Below are positions 9,436-55,088 of a DNA stretch of 64,000 bases, piece by piece. The stretch's first letter is position 1; every line of letters starts with the position of its first letter. A program made the position numbers and the translations under genes. The stretch comes from Deltaproteobacteria bacterium (GTDB lineage Bacteria > Bdellovibrionota_B > Oligoflexia > Oligoflexales > Bog-1112). The notes below the pieces were generated by a model, which was not told the origin of the DNA, made no database searches, and saw only the letters and a program-made list of their open reading frames with translations. The stretch spans positions 30,351 to 94,350 of the forward strand of contig JACPKR010000013.1 in assembly GCA_016186945.1 (NCBI GenBank), given 5' to 3'.

Positions 9436-9611
9436 TCGTGTTTCCTTTTACTTAGTGCTTGCGTCACCTGAGCTTCTTACCCTGCAGGCAGTCAAAATAC
9501 AAATCCTTTTGGAAGGGATACACTCGACTGGGCTAGAAACATTCAGGAAATGATTTCAAGACTCGAGAACCATTAAGTTACCATGAGCTTAGGGGTTATA
9601 CAAGATTTGTA

Positions 9612-23519: not shown

Positions 23520-23834
23520 TCAATAAAGTTTAATTTCAACATCAACACCGGATGCCAGATCAAGCTTCATAAGAGCATCAATGGTTTGCTGTTTCGCATC
23601 GAGGATATCGATGAGTCGTTTGTGGGTACGAACCTCAAATTGGTCTCGCGACTTTTTATCGACGTGTGGGCTGCGCAAAACAGTATACCGATTAATTTCC
23701 GTGGGAAGGGGGATTGGGCCGGCGATGCGCGCGCCTGTCCTTCGAGCGCGTTCTGCAATCTCAGCGGTGGATTGGTCAATCAAGCGATGGTCGTAACCTC
23801 TGAGCTTGATTCTGATCTTTTGATTATCCATCAT
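23520..23834 (-). CDS. rpsJ: 30S ribosomal protein S10
   Basis: S10 (NusE) works in the small-subunit head and in antitermination with NusB. The open frame reaches a TTG at 23858, but the ATG at 23834 gives the usual 104-residue protein ([20 protein letters not shown]) and has AGGAAAG eight bases upstream. Visible motifs are [15 protein letters not shown] and the conserved [12 protein letters not shown]. It is the first gene of the cluster; no tuf, fusA or rpsL gene precedes it. Confidence 0.95.
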
Positions 23835-24014
23835 GGCGCTTTCCTGTTTCGCAGTCAATATTCACAGAGTCTCGCCCCCCTTTGGGGTAAGACTTAGTTT
23901 GCTCATTTTTTGTTGAAAAGAAGATAGGTAAGCAAGCTTCCAATGGCGCAGCATTAACGGCATTGGCGTGCCTTTTTTTAATGGCATGCATACCCTACCT
24001 CGATGAGTGGGGAG

Positions 24015-24043: not shown

Positions 24044-24110
24044 CTATATTTTTCTTTAGAAACACCGCGTAAGCTGCTTAATGAGAACGGCAGAGAAAAA
24101 GGGGACTAGC

Positions 24111-24554
24111 ATGGCGGAAATTCGATTAAGCCGCGGGATTTTTATCCTCGCTCATTTGGGCCTTTTGGCCATAGGAGCTTGCTCGCAAAAAGAGGCAACT
24201 GTCACGGACATTTTAGAGGTAGAAGAGCAGGAGAATGGGCCTACCTTTGAAGACGTTCTTGGGGATGAGGCACTGGATTTGAATGAAGACCTGTGGAAAG
24301 AGGAAGAAAGCTTGGAGAAGGCGGCTCTACTCGCATCGCAAGCAGTCTTGGAAGTGTCAGAAGGCGGGGGTCAGCGTTTTAGGGTCGCCGCTTCAAGCCT
24401 AAACGTACGTAAAGGACCCGGTTTGAAATTTCCAACTGTTGATAAGATGGAAGAGGGCACCGTCGTTGATGTCTCTCGGATCCAAGAGGAGTGGGCTAGG
24501 GTGGGCGAAGGAAAGTGGGTTGCCATGAGGTTTCTTAATCTTATCGCTCCCTAG
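24111..24554 (+). CDS. Lipoprotein with bacterial SH3 domain
   Basis: The ATG at 24111 is preferred over the one at 24081 because it gives a normal lipoprotein signal (RGIFILAHLGLLAIGAC, lipobox IGAC) and follows an AGGGG element. The mature protein has an acidic segment of about 60 residues (EVEEQENG, EDLWKEEES). A C-terminal SH3b-like domain follows with SSLNVRKGPGLKFPTVDKM and WARVGEGKWVAMRFL. Such domains usually bind cell-wall peptides. The total is 147 residues. It is divergent from the ribosomal cluster and upstream of the sulfatase operon. Its specific role is unknown. Confidence 0.8.
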   Translation: MAEIRLSRGIFILAHLGLLAIGACSQKEATVTDILEVEEQENGPTFEDVLGDEALDLNEDLWKEEESLEKAALLASQAVLEVSEGGGQRFRVAASSLNVRKGPGLKFPTVDKMEEGTVVDVSRIQEEWARVGEGKWVAMRFLNLIAP

Positions 24555-24601: not shown

Positions 24602-24644
24602 GAGACTGGATTGCTTCGTCGGGCTTCGCTTCTCGCAATGACAA
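24602..24644. repeat. Short intergenic repeat-like sequence
   Basis: The segment with ATTGCTTCGTC...CTCGCAATGAC has terminal ATTGC and GCAAT arms. Sequences of this kind are common as dispersed intergenic repeats in several bacterial genomes (general knowledge). Only one copy is seen here, so the call is tentative. Confidence 0.4.
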
Positions 24645-24666: not shown

Positions 24667-26694
24667 ATGGTACAAGATTCTCCCGGTAAAATCGCAGCAT
24701 GGGCTCTTTTGCTGACTTTGAGTGTAAGTGTTGCTCAACTGGCCTTTTCTGGTGGTGGTAATTTTTTTGGGGTGGACAGCAGCGTTCTGGTAGCGGAAAT
24801 CCTCCGTCTCTACCCTCTCGTTGCTGCAGAGGAGGCTTTCAAGCTGTTAGCGATTGTTTTTGTTCTTTTTTTCGTCCTTGTGGGCGCTACACTTTTCGCG
24901 TCCCGCAACTTGATGGGAAGGTCATTGTTTTTTAGTCTCGCGGTTCTTGCTTACCTTTTTTCCCTTGCTGGGTCGGTGCTGAGGTACCCTGCTCTCTACG
25001 TTGAGTTTCTTGATGAGGGGTTCCAGGAAAAACTATTCCATGCTTCTCGATTCTTAAGTCCGAACATACTAGATTTTCTTGCTTCTCTGCTTATAGGAGG
25101 GCTGGCCTTATACCTCGTGTCACGACTGAAGCGAAGAAAGCTGGTGTTTAGTGGCGTAGGCATTGTAATTGCTATCCTTCTATTTTCGAGCGCGTACGGC
25201 TTCATCATGAGACGGAGCAGCGCCAGTGCAAGCACGGAAGCAAGCCCTAATGTCCTTATCATAGGTATTGATTCTCTGCGTACTGATCGCGTCCTTTTTC
25301 AAATCATGCCCGAGTTGTTCTCTCTCAAAATGGACCCTCTTACTGTAGTGGGAGAGGATCATATTGTTGGTGTACCGCGCACATTTCCTTCATGGGTCGA
25401 GCTAGTGCAAGGGCGGTATGCTTCACAGACGGGTGTTCGCCATATGTTCCCGGACTTGGTGAGGCAGAGGGCTTTCTATCCGGGTCTAGTGAGTGAGTTG
25501 AGCAGTCTTGGTTACCGTACCTCTGTTGTCTCAGATTTTGCGGGTGATATATTTCCTCGCTTCAAGGCGGGGTTTCAGGACATTGACGCTCCGAATTTTG
25601 ACCTACGGACTCTCATAAAAAAGAGTGTTGATGAGGCCTTCCCTCTTTTTCTTCCTTTCGTGGCGAACCGATTGACGGCCCCTCTGTTTACGCACTTTCT
25701 CGAAAATCCGAGTTTCAGCGACCCGGACTTGCTTGTTGACAAGGCGATAGCTCGTTTGAAGGCTGACGGCCCCTTTTTCCTGAGTGTCTTTTTCTCGACT
25801 GCTCATTTTCCCTACGCAGCTCCCTGGCCGTGGTATTCGGCATACAGTCTAGATACTTACAGCGGGCCCTACTTTTTCAAGAAGGACCCCGATCTGGGCG
25901 CGAGTCAACTCAGCGAGGGTGACATTGAGCAAATTCGCTCCCTTTACTCCGGTTCCCTCTCTGCGGTCGATCAGTCGCTGGGACGACTGTTTAGTTTCCT
26001 GAAAAGTTCCGGAGTGTGGGAGCATACGATCGTCGTTGTTACGGCGGATCATGGGGAGGATCTGTTTGAATTCGACAACATCCAGGGTCATGGGGACCAC
26101 TTGCGGGGTGAAAATGTGTTGAAGGTTCCCCTTCTTATAAAGTTGACAGACAAGTTAAAGCCCGCACAAAAACGGCTTAGCTTCACAAGCAGGGTGATTG
26201 ATGTGGCGCCAACTCTTCTTGGCTTCTTCAAACGCGCTCTGCCGACGGCTCAGGGAACTGACCTTGGCCCATGGATATTGGGAGAAAAGGTAGGGGTTCC
26301 TGCTCAATCTGCCTATTCGGAAACGGGCATTTGGTTTACTCGCAATGGCGGGGCTTTCTTCCAAAGAGAGCGGCTGGACTACCCTAACCTTTCAGGTCTT
26401 TTAAATGTGGATCCAGGGCGTTCCGGTTCTATCGTCATGAGTCCGGACTATGAAAAATTGATAATTGCGGCGAAACATAGGAGTTTGACAAAGGCACGTT
26501 ATAAAATGATCTACACGCCGACGGCTAAAGGAGCTTTTTTCAGGCTTTATGATCGCGAGTTGGATCCCCAGAATCGGAAGGATTTGGCGGATGAGCTGCC
26601 GGACGTCTTCGCCTCGATGAAGGGGGAGCTAATGGAACTTATCCTCAGCATGGATCGAGTCTCATTCGTGGAAGACTATGTGGTGCCTTTATGA
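24667..26694 (+). CDS. Membrane-anchored sulfatase/phosphotransferase-family enzyme 1
   Basis: This 675-residue protein has about five hydrophobic segments in its first 185 residues. A large extracytoplasmic domain of the sulfatase (alkaline phosphatase) superfamily follows. Marks are NVLIIGIDSLRTDRV at about 195, PRTFPSWVELVQGRYAS with a probable Thr/Ser nucleophile in place of the Cys of true sulfatases, VVTADHGEDLFEF and the metal-ligand region GHGDHLRGENV. The layout (membrane helices plus periplasmic catalytic domain) resembles lipoteichoic-acid-synthase or phosphoethanolamine/phosphoglycerol transferases. Substrate is unknown. Its stop overlaps the next start by four bases (ATGA). Confidence 0.8.
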   Translation: MVQDSPGKIAAWALLLTLSVSVAQLAFSGGGNFFGVDSSVLVAEILRLYPLVAAEEAFKLLAIVFVLFFVLVGATLFASRNLMGRSLFFSLAVLAYLFSLAGSVLRYPALYVEFLDEGFQEKLFHASRFLSPNILDFLASLLIGGLALYLVSRLKRRKLVFSGVGIVIAILLFSSAYGFIMRRSSASASTEASPNVLIIGIDSLRTDRVLFQIMPELFSLKMDPLTVVGEDHIVGVPRTFPSWVELVQGRYASQTGVRHMFPDLVRQRAFYPGLVSELSSLGYRTSVVSDFAGDIFPRFKAGFQDIDAPNFDLRTLIKKSVDEAFPLFLPFVANRLTAPLFTHFLENPSFSDPDLLVDKAIARLKADGPFFLSVFFSTAHFPYAAPWPWYSAYSLDTYSGPYFFKKDPDLGASQLSEGDIEQIRSLYSGSLSAVDQSLGRLFSFLKSSGVWEHTIVVVTADHGEDLFEFDNIQGHGDHLRGENVLKVPLLIKLTDKLKPAQKRLSFTSRVIDVAPTLLGFFKRALPTAQGTDLGPWILGEKVGVPAQSAYSETGIWFTRNGGAFFQRERLDYPNLSGLLNVDPGRSGSIVMSPDYEKLIIAAKHRSLTKARYKMIYTPTAKGAFFRLYDRELDPQNRKDLADELPDVFASMKGELMELILSMDRVSFVEDYVVPL

Positions 26695-29063
26695 GGTCGC
26701 TCGTGCGAAATGTTTCCCTGTTCGTGTCGGCTCTGCTCCTCGTTTTTGCGCTGACGTACATCCTTCTCGTTTACCCCAATGACAGGCGCATCAGCTTTCC
26801 GTCGGAGACTTTGCCTCCCCTGCAACGTTTCAGAACAAAGATCTCATCACTTTTCACAGACAAGATCGCTTATGAGTTGACTCTCTCTCTGGAGGCGTAC
26901 CGTAAGAAGCTTGAGACTTTCGCCAACAGTTATGGCAATCATATAAGTTGGCACTCGCTACGCTTCCGCCATCCATTGCAACTTTACATTGCGGCAGGTT
27001 CCCACCCGCACCTGATCGAAGGTCGGGATGCCATTTTTCTTCCTTCCAAGGAGATTTTGACGATCCATCCAGCTTTGCAAGGGGACGTCATGGTGGAATT
27101 TGCAAGTGTTTCCCCCAAGGCAGATGCCGTCCTTACAGTCGGGCATGGAGGCAGAGTTCGGGAGTTTAGGCTTCCTAAGGTTCCTGAGCTGGAAGATACG
27201 GAGTCCCTTCTTTATAGAGCCGTTACCCGCTATTTGTTCCCGGACAGAAAACCTCATACTGGGGTTTGGCAGACTCACAATTTAGAACTAAGTTTGGAAA
27301 AGGGAGACAGCCTTAGGTTTTCATGCCAGTCGGACGAGGATTCATGTTTTCTGGGGGACATCCGCTTCATGTCCCAGACGACAAACAGGCACCCTCAGGG
27401 CGTTGTGCTCATACTTCTGGATACCTTTCGTTACGACGCGATAGCCGGCAAAAATTCGGAGTTTCTTGGGCAGACACAGTCCCACAGCCTCGACTTTGTG
27501 AACGCAGTGGGAGCGGGCAACATGACCTCGATCTCTACGAACGCACTTCTTTCGTGTCAGAAGCCTGCCGATTTAGAAGGCGTTGCTTTTTCCTATGGCA
27601 TTTCGAATGGTGATCAGGAAAGTTTTTACAAGAAGGGAAGAGCCTCTTTCCCCGAACTTCTCCGTCGCAACGGGATTAAAACCGCAGCCATTGGAAATAT
27701 CTCGATCATCTCAGACATACTCGGCATCGGTGTTGACCACGGGTTTGACGACCAGTTCGCAATTGAAACGGAAGGCTACGACACCGCGCAAATCACACGA
27801 GCGGCCCAACACTGGTTGGGGCAAAATGGAGACCAACCCTTTCTCCTCTATTTGCATTACAACAGCCCGCATGGTCCCTACCGCGCACCTTTACGGGACG
27901 TTTTGGCAACGTTCAACGCTTGGACTTCCCTGTCATCGTTAAGAAACATGATGCTCGATCTATATCAAGCGGAAGTCCGATACGTGGATCGATATGTTGA
28001 GAAAATATTTGAAACCCTAGACGAGTTAGGTCTTAGAGAACACACGACTGTGATCATTACATCAGATCATGGAGATCATCACGAAATTCGCTCTTTTTCC
28101 GACAATCAGGCAGGTCCTCCGTACGTAGGAAGCACCTTCGATCATGGGGAAACGCTATACAACGATGAAATCCATGTGCCGTTATTCATAAACACCCCCC
28201 AAGATCGGACCCACAGAATCGTTTCAACCTATGTTTCAAGCCTGGATATTGGACCTACCATATTAGACATGTTTGATATCGTCACCCCCTCGTGGTGTGC
28301 GGGAACCTCTCTTATCGCAACGGATGAGGAGGGTTTGAAAGAGCGAGTCGTGGCGTCTGAAGGTTTTAACCAGAGAGCGATATTTTACGACAGTAAATTT
28401 AAGTACATCAAGACTTACGCAAGTTCAAAGCGCAGCCTTGTGACCCCCTCTGGGTATTGGCGAGAGAGTGCGGAAATTTTTGCAGAGGAGCAGCTTTTCG
28501 ACATCGAGAAGGACCCCCAAGAACAATTCAACCTCCTGAGAAGTGATCTTGCGACATTCACCCTCATGAGAGACTTCTTTCATGACTACTACGGGATCAC
28601 TGAGCAATGGGACTTGCTTGTCGACTCTTTACGGACTGAGCCTGTCGAAATTCTTTTTGCGCCAGAAGACAAGCACAAGCTTTTCTGGAACGACAGTTTT
28701 TCGGAAAGCCCTGCCGGAGTGGTCTTTAAAGCGGAGGGCGAACAGCGTGTACGCATTTCCTTCCGAGAGGCTCCTCAGTCGTTACCTCAAGTGATGGTAG
28801 GGGGAAATTCCTTGGAAGTGACTTACACCTCCTACAGGCTGCCGCTCACTCTGCCTTTTTCTGAACTGCCTTTGGAAAGCGGCTTAAATCTGGACGGGCT
28901 TCCTCTCAGTGTGAAGGACGCGGCGTTTTTCGTAAGGGCCTCGAAAGATCCGCTGAAAGTGAGAAAAATCGTGATTGGCAACCCTCAATTCGAAAGACTC
29001 TTTCGTGAATGGGGATATCTCAACGATAATAATGGGGGCTATGTTCACGCGGAAACAAATTGA
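26691..29063 (+). CDS. Membrane-anchored sulfatase-family enzyme 2
   Basis: A single N-terminal membrane helix (about residues 7-28) anchors a 790-residue protein. After about 200 residues of unrecognised sequence comes a sulfatase/alkaline-phosphatase-superfamily domain: GVVLILLDTFRYDAIAGK near 235, a possible nucleophile in GAGNMTSISTNALLSC, YLHYNSPHGPYRAP, VIITSDHGDHHEI and FDHGETLYNDEIHVPLF. About 170 extra residues follow the domain. It is paired with a distinct paralogue directly upstream, suggesting two steps on one envelope polymer. Substrate and products cannot be read from sequence. Confidence 0.78.
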   Translation: MRSLVRNVSLFVSALLLVFALTYILLVYPNDRRISFPSETLPPLQRFRTKISSLFTDKIAYELTLSLEAYRKKLETFANSYGNHISWHSLRFRHPLQLYIAAGSHPHLIEGRDAIFLPSKEILTIHPALQGDVMVEFASVSPKADAVLTVGHGGRVREFRLPKVPELEDTESLLYRAVTRYLFPDRKPHTGVWQTHNLELSLEKGDSLRFSCQSDEDSCFLGDIRFMSQTTNRHPQGVVLILLDTFRYDAIAGKNSEFLGQTQSHSLDFVNAVGAGNMTSISTNALLSCQKPADLEGVAFSYGISNGDQESFYKKGRASFPELLRRNGIKTAAIGNISIISDILGIGVDHGFDDQFAIETEGYDTAQITRAAQHWLGQNGDQPFLLYLHYNSPHGPYRAPLRDVLATFNAWTSLSSLRNMMLDLYQAEVRYVDRYVEKIFETLDELGLREHTTVIITSDHGDHHEIRSFSDNQAGPPYVGSTFDHGETLYNDEIHVPLFINTPQDRTHRIVSTYVSSLDIGPTILDMFDIVTPSWCAGTSLIATDEEGLKERVVASEGFNQRAIFYDSKFKYIKTYASSKRSLVTPSGYWRESAEIFAEEQLFDIEKDPQEQFNLLRSDLATFTLMRDFFHDYYGITEQWDLLVDSLRTEPVEILFAPEDKHKLFWNDSFSESPAGVVFKAEGEQRVRISFREAPQSLPQVMVGGNSLEVTYTSYRLPLTLPFSELPLESGLNLDGLPLSVKDAAFFVRASKDPLKVRKIVIGNPQFERLFREWGYLNDNNGGYVHAETN

Positions 29064-30105
29064 TAGCCAAGCATTTGCTTGGAGGAACCAGCTGCGCAGT
29101 TTCCTCCAAACCACATCCTTGCCAGTTCTCGCTCTAATTGCTTTGTCCATGCCGACCCTCGTCTTTGGAAAATTCTATTTTCTGACAAATGAATGCCAAC
29201 TCCCGTCGGATCCGGTGGATGAAAAGGGTAGCTTGTCACGTTCCTTTTTTCTATGTGCCAATGGTCTTGCGAACTTAGACGGGATGTACATCACGAATAA
29301 GAGATTTGCTTCCTTAAGCCGTTACAAAATCAAGACATCATTTCACTATGGGCTAAAGCACACCCTTTTCTACCAGGGTTACATGGAGCAGATGGGGGGC
29401 ACAGGGGACGAGTTGCCGTTTCAGAGAGAGTCAAGAAGTGAGCTTGCCATCTACCAATACGGCACGCCGGGTAGTGATAGGGTTCTTTTCCGTGTCGGTC
29501 ATGGTCTTTTGCCATTTGGGATCAACCGAACGCCGCTTGTGGGCCTCAACCAGCTTTTTGACCCCCGTTTCTTCTGGGGTTCTCCTCTTCCTCATGTTGG
29601 ACTCACGCTGGACAACTTGAAAAACTTGACTTTTGAAGTTGCCGCTGGCTTGGAAAAAGAGATCGATGGAGACGAGAGTAAAGACTACAGTTTTTCGTCG
29701 CGAGTCATGTACGACTTCTCGGTTCTAAACGGGACCCGTGCCGTTCTTTCTTTCCTGGGCCAAAAGTCAGGTCCTCGCAAAATGGGAATCGGTCTGCTCA
29801 ATTTTGCGCCCAACCGTAGTCTTTTTCACCTTGAGTGGGCACGATACCGCAGCGCACCTTCTGGAGAAGAAGAGCCGGACCGACGGCTCCTTCGCATCGC
29901 TTACCAGGATCCTCCTCGCGCGAAGGCACAGACCTATGTTTTGTACGATGACGTCAATTTTCAACACCGACTGCTAGTGGTCGGCTCAAAACTTAGTTTT
30001 AACACCCAGTTTAACACAAACCTTGCTATCGCTTACAAAAAGGATGAAACTGGAATGAAAAGACATCGTTGGTATTTTAGTGGCGGTCTTGGATTTCAAT
30101 TATGA
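29041..30105 (+). CDS. Predicted outer-membrane beta-barrel protein with repeat-derived signal region
   Basis: The likely start is the ATG at 29041, giving 354 residues and overlapping the upstream gene by 23 bases. The N-terminal region up to LPVLALIALSMPTLVFG looks like a signal peptide with a long basic n-region. The mature protein alternates polar and hydrophobic residues, with many aromatic-ended strands (VLFRVGHGLLPFG, FHLEWARYRSAP). It ends HRWYFSGGLGFQL with a terminal aromatic/hydrophobic residue, as outer-membrane barrels do. No family was recognised. A dispersed palindrome forms part of the coding sequence (residues about 11-31). It overlaps the next gene by four bases. Confidence 0.65.
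   Translation: MFTRKQIDSQAFAWRNQLRSFLQTTSLPVLALIALSMPTLVFGKFYFLTNECQLPSDPVDEKGSLSRSFFLCANGLANLDGMYITNKRFASLSRYKIKTSFHYGLKHTLFYQGYMEQMGGTGDELPFQRESRSELAIYQYGTPGSDRVLFRVGHGLLPFGINRTPLVGLNQLFDPRFFWGSPLPHVGLTLDNLKNLTFEVAAGLEKEIDGDESKDYSFSSRVMYDFSVLNGTRAVLSFLGQKSGPRKMGIGLLNFAPNRSLFHLEWARYRSAPSGEEEPDRRLLRIAYQDPPRAKAQTYVLYDDVNFQHRLLVVGSKLSFNTQFNTNLAIAYKKDETGMKRHRWYFSGGLGFQL
29071..29133 (-). repeat. Dispersed palindrome family, copy 2 (within coding sequence)
   Basis: The element runs in the opposite orientation to copy 1. TTGGAGGAA (29079-29087) and TTCCTCCAA (29101-29109) form the inner stem around the conserved CAGCTGCGCAG core. The outer CCACATCCTTGCC arm is imperfect. It begins eight bases after the stop of the upstream gene and is translated in frame as WRNQLRSFLQTTSLP within the barrel protein's N-terminus. 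Confidence 0.85.
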
Positions 30106-32723
30106 GTGGTTTGACAAGCGTTTGGATCTTCCTACTGTGTACGACGTCTGTATTGTTTGCTCAGGATGAAAAAAAGGATGAAAGGCAGAAACCTGAAGAG
30201 AAAAAAGAAGAGCTGGAAGAAGAGCAATTTTTCCCACGTATAGACCTAATTTTCGACAATCCTTTCCTTCAACGCAGTCTTAATGCCGGGGCACAGGTCA
30301 TCAATAACTCACTCGACTCCCTATTAGAGGGGGTTTTTTACAGCTTACTCGACAACGAATTTAGTCAAAATCTCACCTCCCACATCCGGTTGGTGGAGAA
30401 CCTTGGCAGGACCGTTTTCACAACCGGCCAGGGAAAGTATGTCGTCGTGGATCGTCTACTTCTTGGTCCGACGTATAGACGTGAAATCATGCGTCACTTC
30501 AACATTATTTTCAATCAGGGTATGGACGCCAGTGTCGACATGCTAAACATTTACCTTCGTTCCGATCCGCAAAGGGTCGCTGAGGAAGTTAGCTTGCCTA
30601 CCTGGCGCTATGTGGTCAACAACTGGTTTGGAGTCTTGCCGTTTTTGGAAAGAGTGCTTACACCATCTTTCAATGCGAATGAACTTTACGACCCGCTTCG
30701 CCAGGTAGAAAGCCCTTTCACCTTTCCCTTCGACAGGAAAGGGTTTGCAAAGATGGAGCTAGGTTCCATCCGCAGTTACGCGTTGCAAGGAGGTCTGACC
30801 TTCCCGATAAATCTGGAGCAAATTTCGGACACCAGCATCCTCGACAATCTGGATCGGCTTGGCTTTGAATTTACAGTCCCCTACACACTCTTCCTCGAAG
30901 GGGAGTATCGGATAAACGTATTAAAGAAGAGCAAGCACATTGCCTGGGTGGGTCTTACCAAGAGTCGGAAATCAGGTCATTCCTTGTCAGGTGTGATCGG
31001 TGCCACCTACTTTCTTCTGGAAAACTCGCTTCGCCCCATCCCTTGGAAGGGGATTCCAACTCAGCTGTCTCTGATCGATGTAAGTCTGATACGGTCTTTG
31101 ATAGACAGATTTGACCAGCTGTACGAGTTTGATCTTAGAAAAAAGGCTGGCTATGAAGGCTTTCAAAAAGCGCTCAGAGGTGATTTCACGTTTGTTAAAA
31201 AAGGTAAGCCTTTAAAAAAAGGTATCTCTTTTCACTTCACAAGACAGTCGGAGTCCACGGTCAAGACTGCGGACAACAAGAAAAACTTCCTGCTTTTGTA
31301 TCGAAACAAGACAGACCACTCCCTTTCGAAAGCAGAAGTAAAGGTGAAGGATGAAAAAGGTGACTTTTTTGTTCTTGAAAATGAAAGCCGCTACGACCAG
31401 GAATCCTGGAATCTGCTCACCGGTGAGAAGGAGGTCAATGTTTCCCATGAACTCGCCGTGAATGTGGAAAAAATGATGGATCCCAAAAGCACCCTTGACG
31501 ATCCGAAGTATCACTATATTTTCCACCGTTCCATGAAGCCCAAGCAACTTGTCCTTAAGCTGCAGATTAAAGACCGTTTTGCACGGGTCAAAGATTTCTA
31601 CTCTTATATTGATCTGCTGCGTCTGTTTACGAATCTTCCGCTCGAGGAAATTCCGGAAATACCGGCGACAGATGACAATGAGCTGAGCCTGCGCCGGCGT
31701 GCGTCTCCCTTCATTTCGCCTTTGAGCAGCCCTCAGAATTTTCACATTACCAACACGATCATAGGAAAATTCAACGCGACGGCAATCGTGGTTTTTGACA
31801 CGCCGGTCTTAACTCACATCATAAGTCGAAGCGAATCCGAGAAAAGATCTGCTTTTTACAAAGCATTTGAAAGGGATTTAGAGCGAGACAGTTTGAGTTT
31901 TTTTGATCGGCTCCGTTACTATTCCGCGTATCCCTTACGGCTGGTCAATCTATCCTTTGATAGTGTTAACCTTCCTTTGGAAGTTAGGGATACTTTGAAC
32001 GCTTTTCTGAAGATTACTCCCGAAAGTCAGCCACTAGAGGTCTTGGATGCGTTCTATGAAATGTTTGACACGGAGTATCCCCACCGTTTGGCTTCAGCTT
32101 TCTTCATACTTTCTCCCTTGAAGGAGGTTCCTAGGAAGGCAACCCTGTATGTTTCCCCTGCCCGTCATTTGGCTGACAAGGTCAAGGCACTGATAGGCGC
32201 GATGAATGAAAAGTCGTTTCAAGCGGAAGCTCCCTTTCCTGAGCTTGAACGTTACCGCATTGCGCGCAACAAACTTAATGCCTTTGTCCCTCTTCACGTA
32301 AAGGAGGAGCAAGGCGACATCCTCATTTTGAGAATCTCACCTGACGAGGGTAAGGCGGTCAAGGTTTTTGTAAAAAACCATCTCAGTCCTCATCGCAAGT
32401 TGTTTTTTGTCCGGGTCGAGACAAAGGGAACCTTAAAGCTTGGGAAAAGTGTGGTCGGTCAGAAGATAGTCGAGGCCATTCCCTCCCAAGTTTCTCCTAA
32501 GGAGGACAGTTTGTCTTACACAATCAAGCTGGAAGGATTTGAAGCTCAGAAGCTTGACACCCAGTTGTGGCAATTGTTCCAGGATAACGATCTGAAGGAG
32601 GGAAAAGACTATCATTTGGTAATTTCAGTTTCGCATGATGCACGGACTTGGAGCGAAGCAAGTAGCTTGGATTTTCAATACAAAAATGGAAGCGTGGTTC
32701 CTATTGTACCCGAGGAGAATTAA
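30102..32723 (+). CDS. Large secreted protein of unknown function in sulfatase operon
   Basis: This 873-residue protein has a clear signal peptide (SVWIFLLCTTSVLFAQ, cleavage near residue 20). A Lys/Glu-rich segment follows, then a long sequence with no motif I recognise. Residues around 205-320 (FAKMELGSIRSYALQGGLTF, IAWVGLTKSRKSGHSLSGVIG) have amphipathic strands; later parts are richer in Lys and helix-forming residues. It may be periplasmic or associated with the outer membrane. Its ATG overlaps the barrel gene by four bases, making it the last member of the four-gene operon. Function is unknown; the context suggests it works with the barrel and the two enzymes. Confidence 0.7.
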   Translation: MSGLTSVWIFLLCTTSVLFAQDEKKDERQKPEEKKEELEEEQFFPRIDLIFDNPFLQRSLNAGAQVINNSLDSLLEGVFYSLLDNEFSQNLTSHIRLVENLGRTVFTTGQGKYVVVDRLLLGPTYRREIMRHFNIIFNQGMDASVDMLNIYLRSDPQRVAEEVSLPTWRYVVNNWFGVLPFLERVLTPSFNANELYDPLRQVESPFTFPFDRKGFAKMELGSIRSYALQGGLTFPINLEQISDTSILDNLDRLGFEFTVPYTLFLEGEYRINVLKKSKHIAWVGLTKSRKSGHSLSGVIGATYFLLENSLRPIPWKGIPTQLSLIDVSLIRSLIDRFDQLYEFDLRKKAGYEGFQKALRGDFTFVKKGKPLKKGISFHFTRQSESTVKTADNKKNFLLLYRNKTDHSLSKAEVKVKDEKGDFFVLENESRYDQESWNLLTGEKEVNVSHELAVNVEKMMDPKSTLDDPKYHYIFHRSMKPKQLVLKLQIKDRFARVKDFYSYIDLLRLFTNLPLEEIPEIPATDDNELSLRRRASPFISPLSSPQNFHITNTIIGKFNATAIVVFDTPVLTHIISRSESEKRSAFYKAFERDLERDSLSFFDRLRYYSAYPLRLVNLSFDSVNLPLEVRDTLNAFLKITPESQPLEVLDAFYEMFDTEYPHRLASAFFILSPLKEVPRKATLYVSPARHLADKVKALIGAMNEKSFQAEAPFPELERYRIARNKLNAFVPLHVKEEQGDILILRISPDEGKAVKVFVKNHLSPHRKLFFVRVETKGTLKLGKSVVGQKIVEAIPSQVSPKEDSLSYTIKLEGFEAQKLDTQLWQLFQDNDLKEGKDYHLVISVSHDARTWSEASSLDFQYKNGSVVPIVPEEN

Positions 32724-34653: not shown

Positions 34654-35589
34654 TTAGTCCTTGACTATCTTGATATTAGATTGGGCGCGCTCAGTTTTTA
34701 GCCAATTTTGGGTCTGTCGATTCAGTTCGATGTTACGCAATTCCTGTTCCAGTTGTTTTTGTTGGCGGAGGAAATCTTGGCTTCCTGTAAGATTGCGATC
34801 GTCGCAGTAGAAGATGATGTAGCCAAGTGGTGTTTTCACGGGAGGGGTAAATTCCCCAACCTTCAGGTTATCCAGATGACGACGGATTTCTTGGGTGAGG
34901 TCACGTAATTTGAAGATCTTGGTTTCTTGTCGCTGACCATTTGAGTAAATCTTTTCAGCATCAGCAAACGACATACCAGCTTTCAGTTTCTCGAAAATCT
35001 GTTGGGCGAGTTTCTCTTTTTCCTTTCCAATAACGGGGTCGTCCACATCTTGAACAATGATTTGTCGCAACGTGAGTTCGACAAATTCCTGCGTCGAGCC
35101 TTGCTTTTTCAGGTAGTAAGCTTGAATATCTTGAGGGCTAAGTTTAATGCGGGGGATGATGACACGGCCACGGAACCGCATAAAGATCATCTGATCTCGG
35201 ATATCGGTCTTATAGGCTTCATATGTTTTGCCTTGCTGTTGGAGGAAGGTTTTCAACGACTCGCGGTTATAACCACCGCTTTCGGAAAGCATGCGTGTGA
35301 TTTGTTCCTCGACCTCTTCGTCGTTCACAACTATTTCCAACTCTTCTGCTTTAGCTTTGATCAGCCTGTAGTTTATGGCGTCATTCATCGCACGTGTAAA
35401 GTTGTCATCCTTTTCTGTGGAAGGGTAGTCGGAGACTTTCACAAGGGGAGCATGGTCAATTTTTTCTTGAATTTCGCTATAGAGAATAGGCTCAGAATCG
35501 ACTAAAGCAACGATTCTGTCGACCACAGATTCCTTTGCCCACAAGGATGGATTGAGTATAAAAATAATGCAGATCAACGTTATCTTCAT
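34654..35589 (-). CDS. surA: SurA-like periplasmic peptidyl-prolyl isomerase
   Basis: The 311-residue protein has a signal peptide (LICIIFILNPSLWA), a SurA-type N-terminal chaperone domain (VVDRIVALVDSEPILYSEI) and one parvulin domain. The parvulin part includes LRQIIVQDVDD, KAGMSFADAEKIYSN and a final KTPLGYIIFYCDDR. E. coli SurA has two parvulin domains; only one is visible here. It probably folds outer-membrane proteins in the periplasm. It is the third gene of an mfd-foldase-foldase unit. Confidence 0.85.
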   Translation of the reverse strand: MKITLICIIFILNPSLWAKESVVDRIVALVDSEPILYSEIQEKIDHAPLVKVSDYPSTEKDDNFTRAMNDAINYRLIKAKAEELEIVVNDEEVEEQITRMLSESGGYNRESLKTFLQQQGKTYEAYKTDIRDQMIFMRFRGRVIIPRIKLSPQDIQAYYLKKQGSTQEFVELTLRQIIVQDVDDPVIGKEKEKLAQQIFEKLKAGMSFADAEKIYSNGQRQETKIFKLRDLTQEIRRHLDNLKVGEFTPPVKTPLGYIIFYCDDRNLTGSQDFLRQQKQLEQELRNIELNRQTQNWLKTERAQSNIKIVKD

Positions 35590-35608
35590 GGGATTGGCTT
35601 CCCTCTCC

Positions 35609-36592
35609 TTATCTCAGGGTCCGAACACCTACTGAATGGATGGCTAGTTCGACCCAGTTTCGGTACACTTTATCTTGCTTTTCCTTGACTAAGGTGGAGA
35701 AGACCTTTTCCCTGGCTTCTTCAAAGCTAAGGGTTCTGGCGTTCTCTTTTTTGTCTAAAATAAAGATATGAAAACCGTAAGTGGACTTCAAAATATCACT
35801 AATTTGGCCCACTGACATTGAAAAAGCGACATCAAACACCCTAGGCAGAACCCCGCTGCGGTACGGGCCTACGACGCCGCCCTTTTCAGCTTCGGGTGCT
35901 ATGGAGTTTTCCTGAGCCAATCGCGAGAAATTTGACTTATTGACCTGCCCCCTTATGATCCGCGCCTTTCGTTCGTTTGCCAGAACAAGTTGGCGAATCT
36001 GTACGAGAGGGGGGCGGTTAAATTCTTCTTTATGTTCTTCGTAGTAATGGCGTAAGTCTGCTTCTGTCGCTTTGATATCTTTAAATAGTTTTTCGTGGCA
36101 ATACTGCTCGATCAAGCTTTTCTCGCACAGTCGGGTATTGAGTCGAGCTTGCTCCTCTTTATCCAAGTGGGGCAGAACTTCGAGGACTTTCCTCCACGCC
36201 TCGTTACAAGCGTTCAGGCGGGATATGTCTTTATGTTTGAAAGTCTTGTCTGATTTCACGAAATTATAGAGGATTTTTCGTTCGATGATCGCGTCGAGAA
36301 TCCTTGCCCGCAGGGATTCCAGCCCTTTCTCCTCTTTCACTTCGGGGATGGCTGTAAGTGTCTCATGATTGCCCAGTTCATGCGTATAAATTTTGTACTC
36401 CAGATCAACATCTGTCGTATAAATGCGTTCGTCGCCCACTTCCATGAGTACATTTTCCTCAAGCATGGAGTCGATGGGGGTTTGGATTTCGTCCGCATAC
36501 CTTCGCCCCATGTTCAGAAAGCGCCATGAGTACAGGCCCATCAGGAAGCATGCTACCGCAAGGATTGTAAAAAAGATGTAACGCCGTTTCAT
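35609..36592 (-). CDS. Membrane-anchored parvulin-type foldase (PrsA/PpiC-like)
   Basis: The 327-residue protein has an N-terminal membrane anchor (IFFTILAVACFLMGLYS), a helical region, and a parvulin (PpiC) domain with VQIRQLVLANERKARIIRG, FSRLAQENSIAPEAEKGGVV and LKSTYGFHIFILDKK. It probably assists folding of exported proteins at the outer face of the inner membrane. The start lies one base after the mfd stop, and surA follows by 19 bases, an arrangement common in deltaproteobacteria. Confidence 0.83.
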   Translation of the reverse strand: MKRRYIFFTILAVACFLMGLYSWRFLNMGRRYADEIQTPIDSMLEENVLMEVGDERIYTTDVDLEYKIYTHELGNHETLTAIPEVKEEKGLESLRARILDAIIERKILYNFVKSDKTFKHKDISRLNACNEAWRKVLEVLPHLDKEEQARLNTRLCEKSLIEQYCHEKLFKDIKATEADLRHYYEEHKEEFNRPPLVQIRQLVLANERKARIIRGQVNKSNFSRLAQENSIAPEAEKGGVVGPYRSGVLPRVFDVAFSMSVGQISDILKSTYGFHIFILDKKENARTLSFEEAREKVFSTLVKEKQDKVYRNWVELAIHSVGVRTLR

Positions 36593-36593
36593 A

Positions 36594-39500
36594 TTAAGTC
36601 AGAACCTCAAGGTGATTGAGCAATTTGGCAAGCTCAGCTTGTTTGTTATGTCGATCAGGGGAAACCATCAAGGAAATCTTTTCTTTTCCATCATAAGCGA
36701 AAACGTCTTGTTTATCTTTCACTAGCGCTCGAAGCTTAACCTTTTCTTTGTCTGTTTTTGCCAAGAGACGAATTTCGTAATGCCCGGGAGATTTTTCGAC
36801 GATGGCAAAAGCGTTCAGTTCCCTTAGTTTTAGGCGCAGGAGGGCAAGTTTCCCCAGAATTTTAAATTCTTCTGGGGTTTGTCCCGATTGATCTTCTGTA
36901 ATTTTGAGTGTCTCCTGAATTTCCTCCTCGTCGGATGCGGAGAAAAGCTTTTTGTAGACATTCAGTCGTTCCCGCTCTTCCGGAATATAGGAATGAGGGA
37001 TGAATGCCTTGACGTTAATCCGAATTTCCGGGTCTGTTTTTTTCTCAATTTTCTGTGAGGACAAGTCACGGATTTTCTCCTCCAGCATTTCGACGTACAT
37101 ATCCATACCAACGCTTGTGATATTGCCTGACTGCTCCCGACCTATAAGGTTACCTGTCCCTCGCAATTCCAGATCGTAGTTCGCAATCTGGAATCCCGCT
37201 CCCAGTTCCTGGTGGGTGGCGAGGATTTCCAGCCGCTTCAGAGCTTCCGGAGGGGGCTGGTCTCCCCGTTTCGTGAGAAGATACGCATACGCTTGGAGCG
37301 AGGAACGCCCAACCCGTCCCCGGAGTTGGTAAAGTTGCGAGAGGCCAAACATAGTAGCGTTGCTGACAATCAAGGTGTTGACGTTGGGCATGTCCACACC
37401 CGACTCTATGATTGTAGTACACACGAGCACATTAAATTTCTGCTCGATAAATTCGATGATGACTTTATCCAGTCTGTCTTCTCTCATCTGTCCATGGGCC
37501 ATTTTAATTTTCGCATCGGGAACAAGTTCCCTGAGGAACTGAACAACACCGTCCAACTCCTCAACGCGGTTATGAACGTAGAAGACCTGTCCTCCTTTAT
37601 GAATTTCTGCTTCAATCGCTGTGCGGATAAGTTTCTCGTCGAAAGGTGACACAACCGTGCGAATGGGGAAACGGTTCAATGGCGGCGTCGTGATGAGGGA
37701 AATATCACGCAAACCTAAGATCGCCGTATGGAGGGTTCGCGGAATAGGCGTTGCGGAAAGAACCAAAATATCAACGCTCGGGTTAATCTGCTTGAGCCGC
37801 TCCTTTTGCAGGACTCCGAATCGCTGCTCCTCATCTACGATAATCAGCCCCAGATGCTTCGGCTTTACGTCTTTTGAAAGCAGACGATGGGTGCCTACCA
37901 AAAGATCCAGGGTGCCAGCTTCAAACTCGGCAAGGGACTTCTTCTGCTCAGTCCTAGCCACGAAACGATTGACTTGGGCAACCCGCACTCCAAATTTTTC
38001 GATCCTGTATTGGAAATTATAGAAATGCTGGTAACACAAAACGGTCGTCGGCACGAGGAACATGACCTGGAGACCTTCCAAGATAGTTCGCATAGCCGCT
38101 CGCATCGCGAGTTCCGTTTTCCCAAAGCCGACATCTCCCACCACAAGCCGATCCATTGGGGCTGGACCGCGAAGGTCGTCCTCGATTTCTTCCATGCAAC
38201 GGATTTGGTCAGGAGTCTCCTGGTAGGGGAAGTCGTCAACGAATTTCTCATAAACTTCCGACGGCTGGGAATATTGGCGACCTCTTGCCAATTTCCTTTG
38301 CGCATGGATCTTCAAAAGGTCCTGCGCTATTTCCTGCACCGCTCGCTCGACCCTTGCCTTTCTGACCTTGAAGCTCTCCCCTCCCAACTTATCCAAAGTG
38401 GGAAATTCGTTCCCTTCTGCTTTTTTGTACTTCTGTAGAAGATTCAAGCGACTGATGGGCAGATAAATCTTGTCTCCCCCTCGATACACCAGGGTTAGAA
38501 ACTCTCCCTCCAAAGCTCCGAGCGTGAGTTGGGTCATTCCTATATACTGCCCAATCCCATGATCGACATGAACAACGAGATCGCCCGAGGATAATTCACG
38601 AAAGGAGGAGATAAGGGCTTTTAACTTTCGGGAGGAACTTCGATCTGCCAGACGTTTTTTGCGAAATATCTCATGCTGCGGGATGAAGAGAATCCCTTGT
38701 TCCGTATCGAGACAAGCTTCGGAAAGGTATCCCCTCGCTATGATCAAACGGTCGGTATGAAATGTTCCCTTGTAGAAGCGCTCCCAAATTGAGTCGTCTC
38801 GCAGGAACGTGCGGTGACTGAGAGTGAGTAAGTCGCGGAGCTTTCCCAGATCTTCTTCACTCTCCCCAAGGAAGGCAAGCGAGTGGCCCCGTTCCTCCTG
38901 TCTGTCGACATAATCCAACCACGAGTCAAAGGAGCTAAGTTCTTTTTTCTTACCTTTGTTAGGAAGATCAAGACTTGCTCCCTTCCAGGTTAAGACGAGT
39001 GCGCCGTCCTTTCTCGACGGGTTTTCGAACTCGACATTAGGAAACTGCGCTATGAACTTGAGAACGTCTGCCGAGGGGGCCATAAAACTTGACGGTGCGA
39101 CAACTGCATGGTTTTCCGCCCGGTCCTTTCTATAAAGGTGGGCTAGATCTTCTTCAAAGTTCTGGAACGCTTTCAGACAAAGGTCAATCGAATGAGGGAA
39201 AAGGAACACATCATGCAGGGAGGAGACGTCTATATATTGGAACGTAGGTACACTTTCCTCAAAGAGCTGAGGGGAGAGGGCGTCTATGTGCGGAGTTTTT
39301 TCACCTCTGTCGAAAGAGAACATGATCCCCTGGGTCTCGGAGGCAGACACATTGTTATCGAGTAAGAAGTTGTAAAGCTTTTGCGCAAGGTCCTTCTTTC
39401 GTGCTGGGCTGATAATCATGTCAGAAGCAGGGGGGATCGAAGCTGAAGAAAGCTCACCTTCCGACTTTTGCGATTCAAGGTGAAACTTACGAAGGGAGAC

Positions 39501-40127
39501 AAGTGCGTCTCCCATGAGTTCTACTCTAACGCCATATGGGGATTGAATGGGAGAGAGGTCTAAAATACCACCTCGTAGGGCAAAGAAGCCTTTTTCTTCA
39601 ACACGGGTACTTTGCTGGTAGCCAATTTCACGCAAGGTGAGGAGGAAGGTGTCCAGGTCGAGAGTTTGACCGACGGTGAGTGTAAGCTTGTGCTTGAGGA
39701 AGGCCCCCTTTGCGAGCGTCATCTGTCCAAGAGCAGGCAAGGTGGTGAGTATGATCGTCCGTTTCGGGGGAGCAACACTTCGGTCTTGCTCGGATAGGGC
39801 ATCGAGACAGGCCAGACGTTCGCGTTTCAAGGTCAGGTGGTGGATGTACTTCTCTGGCCCCCAAACTGAGTAATGAGGAAGAAGAAGGACCTGGCCAAGC
39901 CCTCGTGTGGCATCATCCAAACGGATCAGATTTTCCCGCCAAACAGGAAGGTCTTTGGCGTGGGGGAGGACTATAAAAATATTTCCGCAGTTCTCTGATT
40001 CAGGCACGAGTCCCAGCAATAGCAGTTGCAGAAGTCCGGGCGAAGTTCCAAGGACTTGTATCAGACCCTTGTCGCGCGTACTCCTGATTTCTTTTATGAG
40101 TGAATGAATGCCGTTTATGTTGACCAC
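36594..40127 (-). CDS. mfd: Transcription-repair coupling factor Mfd
   Basis: Mfd removes RNA polymerase stalled at DNA damage and recruits UvrA. The 1177-residue protein has a UvrB-like N-terminal part, the RNA-polymerase interaction domain (SGDLVVHVDHGIGQYIGM near 525), and the superfamily-2 translocase: GDVGFGKTELAMRAAM, LIIVDEEQRFGV, LSATPIPRTLH and QLRGRVGRSSLQAYAYLL. The C-terminal TRCF domain ends near position 1150. Length is normal. The plus-strand gene sodB is divergent, with a palindrome in the shared gap. Confidence 0.98.
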   Translation of the reverse strand: MVNINGIHSLIKEIRSTRDKGLIQVLGTSPGLLQLLLLGLVPESENCGNIFIVLPHAKDLPVWRENLIRLDDATRGLGQVLLLPHYSVWGPEKYIHHLTLKRERLACLDALSEQDRSVAPPKRTIILTTLPALGQMTLAKGAFLKHKLTLTVGQTLDLDTFLLTLREIGYQQSTRVEEKGFFALRGGILDLSPIQSPYGVRVELMGDALVSLRKFHLESQKSEGELSSASIPPASDMIISPARKKDLAQKLYNFLLDNNVSASETQGIMFSFDRGEKTPHIDALSPQLFEESVPTFQYIDVSSLHDVFLFPHSIDLCLKAFQNFEEDLAHLYRKDRAENHAVVAPSSFMAPSADVLKFIAQFPNVEFENPSRKDGALVLTWKGASLDLPNKGKKKELSSFDSWLDYVDRQEERGHSLAFLGESEEDLGKLRDLLTLSHRTFLRDDSIWERFYKGTFHTDRLIIARGYLSEACLDTEQGILFIPQHEIFRKKRLADRSSSRKLKALISSFRELSSGDLVVHVDHGIGQYIGMTQLTLGALEGEFLTLVYRGGDKIYLPISRLNLLQKYKKAEGNEFPTLDKLGGESFKVRKARVERAVQEIAQDLLKIHAQRKLARGRQYSQPSEVYEKFVDDFPYQETPDQIRCMEEIEDDLRGPAPMDRLVVGDVGFGKTELAMRAAMRTILEGLQVMFLVPTTVLCYQHFYNFQYRIEKFGVRVAQVNRFVARTEQKKSLAEFEAGTLDLLVGTHRLLSKDVKPKHLGLIIVDEEQRFGVLQKERLKQINPSVDILVLSATPIPRTLHTAILGLRDISLITTPPLNRFPIRTVVSPFDEKLIRTAIEAEIHKGGQVFYVHNRVEELDGVVQFLRELVPDAKIKMAHGQMREDRLDKVIIEFIEQKFNVLVCTTIIESGVDMPNVNTLIVSNATMFGLSQLYQLRGRVGRSSLQAYAYLLTKRGDQPPPEALKRLEILATHQELGAGFQIANYDLELRGTGNLIGREQSGNITSVGMDMYVEMLEEKIRDLSSQKIEKKTDPEIRINVKAFIPHSYIPEERERLNVYKKLFSASDEEEIQETLKITEDQSGQTPEEFKILGKLALLRLKLRELNAFAIVEKSPGHYEIRLLAKTDKEKVKLRALVKDKQDVFAYDGKEKISLMVSPDRHNKQAELAKLLNHLEVLT

Positions 40128-52269: not shown

Positions 52270-53988
52270 ATGCTTACTGATAATCTGCAAGAAATTCTCA
52301 TAAATGAAACAAGTCTAACAGAGGAAGATTTCAAGCAGGCGAGTGCAGACAGCAGGTCAAGCAACATTTCCCTCATGCACGCGATTGAGAAACTTAACAA
52401 GGCGGACGGAGCGAAAGTCCTTGATATTTTTTCCCGCTATTATCACGTTACAAAAGTTAACCTCAATGAGCAGGATATTGATGAAGAAATCGTGAAACTT
52501 GTTCCGAAGAACATTGCCCAGCAATATCGCGTCATCCCCATCGAGAGGGTGGGGAACAATCTTATCGTAGCGACGGGAAACCCGCGTAACTTAGAAGCCA
52601 TGGACACGATCCGTTTCAAGTGCGGCTACTTAGCTAAGCCTATCCTTGCTTCGGAAACAAAGATCACCGAGGCTCTAGGAAAATATTACGGCAAAATGGA
52701 CCTCCCGAAGTTTGAAAGCAAGGTTCCTGACTCAGGTTTCACTCGTACGACAAGCACAACATCGGTCAGAAAAATCATCACCGGGGACGGGCGCGAGGAC
52801 GGACCCATCATCAAACTCGTTAACGATATCTTGATTAAGTGTCTGAAGTCACGAGCTTCCGACATACACTTCGAGGCCTATGAAGACCACATGCGTATCC
52901 GTCTACGAATCGACGGTGCCCTCGTCGAAATTGCCCGCCCCCCTTTGACCATGAAGGCACCTCTTATTTCGCGTATCAAAATCATGGCTGGCCTAAACAT
53001 TGCTGAGTCGCGTCTACCGCAGGACGGTGCCATTAACATCAGCATTGAAGATAAACCCATCGACTTTCGGGTGAACTCACTTCCCACAGTTTATGGTGAA
53101 AAGATTGTCATGAGGATTCTCGATAAGTCTAATCTCCAAGTTGACATGACTCAGCTTGGATTTGAAGAGGATCAGCTCAAACTTTTCAAGAATGCCATTC
53201 TATCACCATTCGGCATGGTTCTCGTAACGGGGCCGACAGGCTCAGGGAAAACGACAACCCTTTATTCAGCCTTACAGGAATTGAACCGAGAAGATACCAA
53301 CATCATGACAGCAGAAGATCCCGTGGAATATAACCTGACGGGAGTGAACCAAGTGCAGATGAAATCTGAAATTGGTCTAAATTTTGCTGAGAGCCTGCGA
53401 GCCTTCCTCAGGCAAGACCCCGACGTCATCATGGTCGGGGAGATTCGCGACCTCGAAACTGCGGAAATCGGCATCAAAGCAGCGTTAACAGGCCATATGG
53501 TCCTTTCTACCTTGCATACCAATAGCGCAGCTGACACGGTCTCTCGACTTCTCAACATGGGAGTCGCTCCCTTCAACCTTGTTGCTGCGTTGAATTGTGT
53601 CACTGCACAAAGGCTTGTTAGGAAAATCTGCACCTACTGTCGACAGGAAGACCCATCAGTAAGCCAGGAAGTTCTAAAAGAGCTTGGAATCAGCCCTGCC
53701 TACGCATCGAAAGTCAAAGCATACATAGGAAAAGGATGTGCCCAATGCGCTCAGGCAGGGACCAAAGGGCGAATTGCTGTTCATGAAGTGATGGTGATGA
53801 ATGAAGAAATAAAGAAAAGTATTCTGCGCGGTGATCCTTCCTCAGAAATCAAGAAGATTGCCATGCGAACAGGGATGAAAACGCTCAGACAATCAGCCCT
53901 AACAAAGATGGTTCAAGGAATCACAACAATAAAAGAAGTCCTCAAGACCACTGCAGCCGATCATGACTCCGTCAAAGTGGTGGCATAG
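52270..53988 (+). CDS. pilB: Type IV pilus assembly ATPase PilB
   Basis: PilB is the hexameric ATPase that powers pilus extension. The ATG at 52270 with AAGGTG eight bases upstream is preferred over a GTG at 52261. The 572-residue protein has the N-terminal T2SSE_N domain, the Walker A motif GPTGSGKTTTLYSAL, Asp box with TAEDPVEYNLTG, Walker B PDVIMVGEIRDLETAEI, the LSTLHTNSAADT box and a CTYC...CAQC zinc motif. Part of a pilB-pilT-pilC unit. Confidence 0.95.
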   Translation: MLTDNLQEILINETSLTEEDFKQASADSRSSNISLMHAIEKLNKADGAKVLDIFSRYYHVTKVNLNEQDIDEEIVKLVPKNIAQQYRVIPIERVGNNLIVATGNPRNLEAMDTIRFKCGYLAKPILASETKITEALGKYYGKMDLPKFESKVPDSGFTRTTSTTSVRKIITGDGREDGPIIKLVNDILIKCLKSRASDIHFEAYEDHMRIRLRIDGALVEIARPPLTMKAPLISRIKIMAGLNIAESRLPQDGAINISIEDKPIDFRVNSLPTVYGEKIVMRILDKSNLQVDMTQLGFEEDQLKLFKNAILSPFGMVLVTGPTGSGKTTTLYSALQELNREDTNIMTAEDPVEYNLTGVNQVQMKSEIGLNFAESLRAFLRQDPDVIMVGEIRDLETAEIGIKAALTGHMVLSTLHTNSAADTVSRLLNMGVAPFNLVAALNCVTAQRLVRKICTYCRQEDPSVSQEVLKELGISPAYASKVKAYIGKGCAQCAQAGTKGRIAVHEVMVMNEEIKKSILRGDPSSEIKKIAMRTGMKTLRQSALTKMVQGITTIKEVLKTTAADHDSVKVVA

Positions 53989-53990
53989 CC

Positions 53991-55088
53991 ATGAATACTA
54001 AACTTAACTACACACTTGCCCAGCTTCTCAAGGCGTTGGCTGATCAAAAAGGAAGCGACCTGCATCTGAGCGCTCTCTCACCTCCTCGCATGCGGATTCA
54101 GGGAGACCTACTTCCCCTGGAGCTTCCTCCCCTCACCCCGCAAAACACGCAGGACCTTTGTTACAGCATTTTAAGTGAAGAGCAGAGGAAACGATTCGAG
54201 CAGCAACGGGAATTAGACTTTGCCTTCAACGTGACAGGGGTCTCTCGATTTCGTGCCAACCTCTTCTGGCAACGGGGGACTGTCGGAGGGGCGTTCCGGG
54301 TCATTCCTAGCAAGATCCCCTCCATAGAAGAGCTTGGCCTGCCTGCCACCCTTCGAGAGGTGAGCAAGAAACCAAGGGGCTTGGTTCTTGTCACTGGCCC
54401 CACTGGTTCGGGGAAGTCAACGACCCTTGCCTCAATGGTGGATTTTATCAACACAAATTACACTCATCATATCATCACCATCGAGGACCCTATTGAGTTC
54501 ATCCATAGCAATAAACGTTCTCTCATCAACCAAAGGGAAGTGGGAAGCGACACCAATAGTTTTGCCCGTGCCCTCAAGAGTTCCCTGCGCGAAGACCCCG
54601 ACGTCATCCTTGTTGGTGAGTTACGGGACGTGGAGACAATTTCCATGGCACTCACCGCGGCGGAGACTGGACATTTGGTGCTGGCGACAGTTCACACAAA
54701 TTCGTGTATCTCTACGATCAACAGAATCATAGATGTTTTTCCGTCACATCAGCAAACACAGGTCCGCACCCAGTTAGCGCTCAGCCTTATGGGAATCGCG
54801 TCCCAACTTCTCATCAAAACCTTAGATCAAAAGCGGACGGTTTGTCTGGAATCGCTGTTTCCAAACAGTGCCATTCGCAACCTAATTCGGGAGGACAAAG
54901 TCCACCAGATTTACTCCGCAATGCAGATTGGTCAAGAGGGGAGCGGTATGCAAACGATGAACCAGGCTCTGCTGCATTTGATTTTAAAGAAAAAGGTAGC
55001 TGTTGTTACAGCATATCAGCTCAGTCCGGATCCTGTGGAATTTCAAGACATGCTCAACAAAGCGAACATAAAGGTGGCAAGCACGTAA
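53991..55088 (+). CDS. pilT: Type IV pilus retraction ATPase PilT
   Basis: PilT drives pilus retraction and twitching. The 365-residue protein begins with the short PilT N-domain (GSDLHLSALSPPRMRIQGD) and has VTGPTGSGKSTTLASMVDF, ITIEDPIEFIHSNKRSLINQ, LREDPDVILVGELRDVETI and TGHLVLATVHTNS. No zinc tetracysteine motif is present, as expected for PilT. It starts two bases after pilB and stops one base before pilC. Confidence 0.95.
   Translation: MNTKLNYTLAQLLKALADQKGSDLHLSALSPPRMRIQGDLLPLELPPLTPQNTQDLCYSILSEEQRKRFEQQRELDFAFNVTGVSRFRANLFWQRGTVGGAFRVIPSKIPSIEELGLPATLREVSKKPRGLVLVTGPTGSGKSTTLASMVDFINTNYTHHIITIEDPIEFIHSNKRSLINQREVGSDTNSFARALKSSLREDPDVILVGELRDVETISMALTAAETGHLVLATVHTNSCISTINRIIDVFPSHQQTQVRTQLALSLMGIASQLLIKTLDQKRTVCLESLFPNSAIRNLIREDKVHQIYSAMQIGQEGSGMQTMNQALLHLILKKKVAVVTAYQLSPDPVEFQDMLNKANIKVAST

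Follow-up and report, generated by a model that had tools for sequence, protein, structure and literature searches.

Two separately inherited gene pairs in an Oligoflexales locus: putative threonine-type phospho-enzymes beside a predicted porin and its exported partner

A threonine nucleophile is used by EptA, MCR-1 and LtaS (PMC5175174, PMC7576196), and the corresponding metal-site pair in YejM is Asp268/Thr302 (PMC7576196). There is no demonstrated case of formylglycine formation from threonine, and uncharacterised threonine-bearing proteins of the PF00884 family cannot be counted as functional sulfatases (PMC5066984). These enzymes are the closest described counterparts of proteins A and B, the products of the first two of four overlapping genes considered here. 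Protein A shares with E. coli YejM (PbgA/LapC) a five-helix anchor, a periplasmic alkaline-phosphatase-type domain and the combination of Asp and Thr at the metal site. However, A retains full Asp-His and His ligands at positions that align with Gly-Arg and Trp of YejM, it is coupled to a second enzyme (B), and the tree places it apart from YejM. EptA/MCR-1 and LtaS/OpgB have the threonine nucleophile, the membrane anchor and the expected phospho-group chemistry in common with A and B, although the five-helix anchor of the EptA/LtaS type is found only in A, B having one helix and extra domains. They differ from A and B by Glu instead of Asp at the first ligand, and A and B form separate clades. 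The top PDB sequence matches of both proteins are not LtaS or EptA, but phosphonate monoester hydrolases, which are formylglycine enzymes (2w8s); A and B depart from these, and from formylglycine sulfatases, by Thr in place of Cys/Ser and by the lack of the signature Arg.

The third protein, C, is comparable to OmpF/OmpC, PorB and OprP/OprO, with which it shares 16 strands (Z ∼22, rmsd 3–4 Å, 260–290 residues). It differs from these general porins in having no sequence family match, in an invariant N-terminal cysteine pair (C52 and C72) and in the tie of its gene to that of the fourth protein, D. Modification of osmoregulated periplasmic glucans (OpgB with MdoG) was rejected as a further parallel, since MdoG (PF04349) is absent from all 56 genomes compared and was found in the E. 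coli control. Our best explanation of the whole locus, with a probability of about 0.42, is that A and B would be threonine-type phospho-group enzymes, that C and D would form an outer-membrane pair, and that the two modules would be functionally linked.

Gene order and surroundings of the locus

The window, i.e. the whole 64,000-nt stretch of DNA that was analyzed, contains the following features:

23520–23858, minus strand: rpsJ, ribosomal protein S10 (PF00338, 128.1 bits), start of the divergent S10 operon
24081–24554, plus strand: predicted lipoprotein-like SH3 protein, 157 aa (Pfam SH3_3, 26.7 bits, just below the cut-off of 27)
24667–26694, plus strand: gene A, 675 aa; five-helix membrane anchor and periplasmic alkaline-phosphatase-superfamily domain, putative Thr-nucleophile metalloenzyme
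26691–29063, plus strand: gene B, 790 aa; single-helix anchor, N-terminal extra domain, alkaline-phosphatase-superfamily domain and C-terminal extension
29041–30105, plus strand: gene C, 354 aa; predicted 16-strand outer-membrane porin fold with signal peptide, start codon uncertain
29059–29123, plus strand: copy of a REP-like dispersed palindromic repeat (repeat families D1/D3), spanning the end of B and the start of C
30102–32723, plus strand: gene D, 873 aa; exported, Oligoflexales family without Pfam match
34654–40127, minus strand: surA-like, ppiC-like and mfd genes (Pfam)

The open reading frames of A to D all lie on the plus strand and overlap by 4 (A/B), 23 (B/C) and 4 nt (C/D), exactly as the original prediction had described them. 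This arrangement is beyond chance, as many relatives show the same A-B and C-D junctions. The reading frame of C opens at a TTG codon at 28975, upstream of the ATG (29041) chosen originally.

The repeat copy at the B-C junction encodes 'AWRNQLRSFLQTTSLP' in the n-region of the predicted signal peptide of C. In a search allowing up to two mismatches, its 22-nt near-palindromic core was found in 396 copies in this 2.66-Mb draft genome and in about 50 copies in each of two relatives (G005 and G007), but neither in G001, which belongs to the same genus, nor in any of the 52 remaining genomes. More copies of the repeat are located in the window at 9605, 33971, 34603, 40152 and 52141, and the genome encodes a Y1-type transposase that could be the partner of repeats of this kind. 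Folding of the hairpin at the B-C junction is hardly more favorable than that of shuffled sequences (z −1.0). In G001, a gap of 91 nt separates B from the reading frame of C, which has an ordinary signal peptide. This gap, together with the repeat copy at the junction, indicates that the 23-nt overlap belongs to the present lineage and leaves the true start of C uncertain. A short repeat-like sequence just before A (24608–24642) is present as a single copy in this genome.

The gene rpsJ is a conserved left neighbor in several families, in which the block is divergent from the adjoining S10 operon, and the surA-like, ppiC-like and mfd genes are right neighbors in two families. In family f8, the block adjoins the rpoA operon and an lptF/lptG gene. 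The nearness to envelope genes is no more than suggestive. Homologues of the SH3 protein are found upstream of A, C or an HD-GYP gene in six relatives (G005, G006, G011, G014, G033 and G036). A scan for promoters and terminators gave terminator counts that were not clearly above those of shuffled sequences and promoter counts that were little above them. Elsewhere in the window, two 46-nt direct repeats that are 78% alike (53414–53459 and 54592–54637) look like a motif conserved between two ATPase genes that are related to each other.

Proteins C and D

Neither C nor D has a significant match in Pfam or NCBIfam, and no member of either family matches convincingly. A search of PDB sequences with the profile of C returned nothing but a weak match to EstA (E = 0.0023), an esterase that carries a barrel. 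The AlphaFold2 model of C, built from 17 sequences, has a mean pLDDT of 81.8 and 16 strands, and comparison with solved structures (Foldseek, VIA-align) places it next to OmpF, OmpC, PorB and OprO with Z-scores of 21–22. On the basis of this model, we are confident in predicting a 16-strand outer-membrane porin-type fold for C, and the barrel anticipated from its sequence thus survives structure prediction.

D has a signal peptide by inspection. Its AlphaFold2 model (mean pLDDT 77.6) consists of a β-rich N-terminal half, a helical middle and a fibronectin-III-like C-terminal domain, the last of which (residues 738–868) matches fibronectin-III domains with a Z-score of ∼8 and an rmsd of ∼2.7 Å (VIA-align). 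The profile of D matched no PDB sequence and showed no relation to that of C. The N-terminal half contains about 13 long strands between residues 95 and 565, its best structural matches are all outer-membrane barrels, and the two faces alternate in 7 of the 13 strands, compared to 8 of 16 in C. D itself could then be an outer-membrane barrel, with C and D forming machinery that exports or assembles a surface polymer or lipid, a possibility compatible with our best explanation. However, the best VIA-align Z-score is 10.4 at an rmsd of 7 Å over 202 residues, the TM-scores from Foldseek are about 0.2 or less, and the strands at residues 375–437 are polar on both faces, and we consider this combined reading of C and D somewhat unlikely. 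No known fold could be accepted for the N-terminal half, since none of these matches is convincing. The description of D as a secreted protein of no known family holds as far as the signal peptide and the lack of a Pfam family are concerned, but D may be located in the outer membrane instead of being soluble.

Separate inheritance of A-B and C-D

The distribution of the four genes was analyzed in 56 relatives, comprising the order Oligoflexales (43 members) and sister families, and D was additionally searched by profile in 58 genomes of the phylum. C-D is present in about 30 of the 43 order members, mostly without A-B (∼21 of 30 genomes). D was detected in 30 of the 58 phylum genomes, all from this one order, plus an end fragment in G030; the profile search did not find it in genomes of families f12 and f13 of the same class. 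The distribution of C is nearly the same as that of D. One genome (G008) has D without a detectable C and carries a 311-aa reading frame in its place, with the same 4-nt overlap. Ten order members carry the A-B pair, and so do seven genomes of genus g25 in the sister family f12, where it occurs without C-D and beside an endonuclease III-type gene. One order member (G017) also has A-B without C-D.

All four genes occur in this order in seven genomes, and an eighth (G001) fits across a contig break. In a ninth genome with both modules (G005), D is unlinked from A-B-C (L033, L032), the sole such case. The original prediction regarded the four genes as a fixed set. That view does not hold, as C-D mostly occurs without A-B, and a fixed four-gene operon is rejected: the locus is composed of two separately inherited pairs that are together in only some members of one order. 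The junctions follow the same division. D starts 4 nt inside the stop codon of C in 21 of 25 junctions, and the start/stop offset between A and B is −4 or −1 in 10 of 13. The B-C junction, by contrast, is variable, with −23 here, +87 to +91 nt in three relatives (G001, G007 and G033), and nearest starts or reading frames at offsets from −25 to +91 across relatives; a conserved B-C overlap is rejected on these grounds.

On the tree of D, the presence of A-B requires five changes. The trees of A and B, for which the f12 root was imposed, are quick trees with weak forks; they group most of the f1 rows and join f9 to f8 rows, as the D tree largely does, with f12 outside. An old A-B pair with repeated loss would fit these weakly forked trees better than recent repeated gain.

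The separate inheritance raises the question of whether A-B and C-D are simply independent neighbors that share transcription and no common pathway. Each pair occurs without the other, the junction between them is the loose one, and there is no excess of co-occurrence, since C-D is found in 9 of the 10 A-B genomes compared to 30 of 43 overall. C-D cannot depend on A-B, because most genomes with C-D lack it. On the other hand, wherever both modules are present (nine genomes from three families), A-B immediately precedes C, even where the whole block sits elsewhere on the chromosome (f8 and f9). We regard independence of the two pairs as unlikely, a functional link between them being the reading that we prefer.

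Active sites of A and B and a possible role of the locus

A and B belong to the PF00884 branch of the alkaline phosphatase superfamily according to their profile scores (95.6 and 122.9 bits, respectively, with a cut-off of 25) and their conserved Asp, Asp-His and His ligands. A transmembrane scan detects one hydrophobic segment in B and five in A, all of these five preceding the catalytic domain, in agreement with the original proposal of two different membrane-anchored enzymes of this superfamily. The putative active-site residues, assigned by alignment, are D202, T239, D461, H462 and H475 in A, and D244, T279, D459, H460 and H485 in B. Threonine occupies the nucleophile position in 12 of 13 rows of A and in 12 of 13 rows of B, including every row from Oligoflexales and g25 (T239 and T279), the exceptions being degenerate copies from a sister family. 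The same alignment position is Thr in E. coli EptA and YejM, and Ser/Cys in AslA/YidJ. Asp serves as the first metal ligand throughout the A homologues and, apart from one degenerate copy, throughout those of B, compared to Glu in EptA, LtaS and OpgB.

In the tree, which is weakly resolved, A and B each form a clade of their own, outside the EptA/OpgB group and outside AslA/YidJ, and the NCBIfam models for EptA and LtaS score A and B far under their cut-offs. The original prediction had posed a choice between LtaS/EptA-type transferases and true sulfatases. A and B have a threonine nucleophile, as in LtaS, EptA and YejM, and lack the formylglycine signature, but their clades fall inside neither group. 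A and B thus look, from their active-site residues, like threonine-type phospho-enzymes, whether or not they belong to a named transferase family; we infer their phospho-group chemistry from the related families. Two more PF00884 proteins are encoded on other contigs of the same genome (L089 and L090). They are about 630 aa long and multi-helical, have Glu and Thr at the metal site, and group with EptA/OpgB in the tree, making them candidate phospho-group transferases of this genome.

Catalysis could also be secondary, with A and B acting not as biosynthetic transferases but as a sensory or scaffolding pair of the YejM/PbgA type in the control of envelope synthesis. A and YejM share the five-helix anchor, and degenerate copies exist in the sister family: in G053, the homologues of A and B have both lost the threonine and most ligands while the 4-nt overlap is intact, and in G054, B has lost the threonine and the ligands and A is gone. 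What survives of A-B at these loci (L053, L060) is an apparent pair of pseudoenzymes in G053 and a degenerate B standing alone in G054. In genus g25 (L050, L051 and L052), B has Lys in place of the last metal-binding histidine (H485); these B homologues also have an extended N-terminus (964–971 aa). The joint decay of the pair argues for a shared function and is compatible with a non-catalytic role. The full active site is kept, however, in all Oligoflexales members examined, and we judge a primarily sensory or scaffolding role improbable. It is far less probable still that A and B are true sulfatases whose substrates would be sulfated polysaccharides entering by way of porin C, for although PF00884 membership, the presence of sulfatases among the closest PDB matches and a porin in the operon would fit such a degradation locus, both proteins are membrane anchored, the locus contains no glycosidase or transporter, no A or B homologue matches the updated formylglycine signatures (PMC5066984), including the second signature G-Y-x-[TSCV]-x(3)-G-K, all of which E. 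coli AslA and YidJ do match, and A and B are not formylglycine sulfatases because their nucleophile is Thr, with neither the Cys/Ser nor the Arg that follows it. A function as true sulfatases is rejected on this active-site evidence, and the sulfatase call that profile searches return for A and B is likely a mis-annotation.

In our preferred reading, A and B would be translationally coupled metalloenzymes that are anchored in the inner membrane, face the periplasm, and most likely form a phospho-threonine intermediate. Their substrate would be an envelope lipid or glycan, to which they would transfer, or from which they would remove, phosphoglycerol, phosphoethanolamine or simple phosphate. 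C and D would constitute a translationally coupled outer-membrane pair, in which C provides a porin-type channel and is served by D, a dedicated exported protein that probably resides in the outer membrane or at its surface. With A-B placed before C-D, the simplest reading is that a molecule modified by A-B would be handled by C-D. There is good support for the gene anatomy, the modularity, the threonine active sites and the porin fold predicted for C; the substrate of A-B and a functional link of the two modules are guesses, and the role of D is a proposal. Several observations speak against this reading: the locus contains no gene for glycan or lipid synthesis and no MdoG was detected, most C-D genomes lack A-B, D is unlinked from C in G005, the best PDB sequence matches of A and B are phosphonate monoester hydrolases, and the fold matches of D are only middling. 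With no polymer-synthesis gene in the locus and no MdoG in the genomes compared, the earlier suggestion that the genes decorate or export an envelope polymer keeps the standing of a conjecture.

A gene of the HD-GYP type (PF13487, with the GYP motif visible in the sequence) is located directly upstream of A or C in 17 loci. Its product, probably a cyclic-di-GMP phosphodiesterase, heads the block in most of the relatives that have it, and such a position would tie the activity of the block to cyclic-di-GMP. The present genome lacks this gene, with no homologue found at E = 1e-20 or better. A literature search found no paper joining HD-GYP, sulfatase, outer membrane, Bdellovibrio and operon. It is conceivable, if rather improbable, that C-D would represent an undescribed two-protein outer-membrane machine specific to Oligoflexales, controlled by cyclic-di-GMP and fed in some lineages by a new A-B pair of threonine-type transferases.

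D defines a large family of exported proteins that is kept in most of one order and absent from Pfam, with the porin-fold protein C as its near-constant partner. Resolving the roles of A to D would reveal what an envelope locus common among Oligoflexales does, and would correct the likely mis-annotation of A and B.
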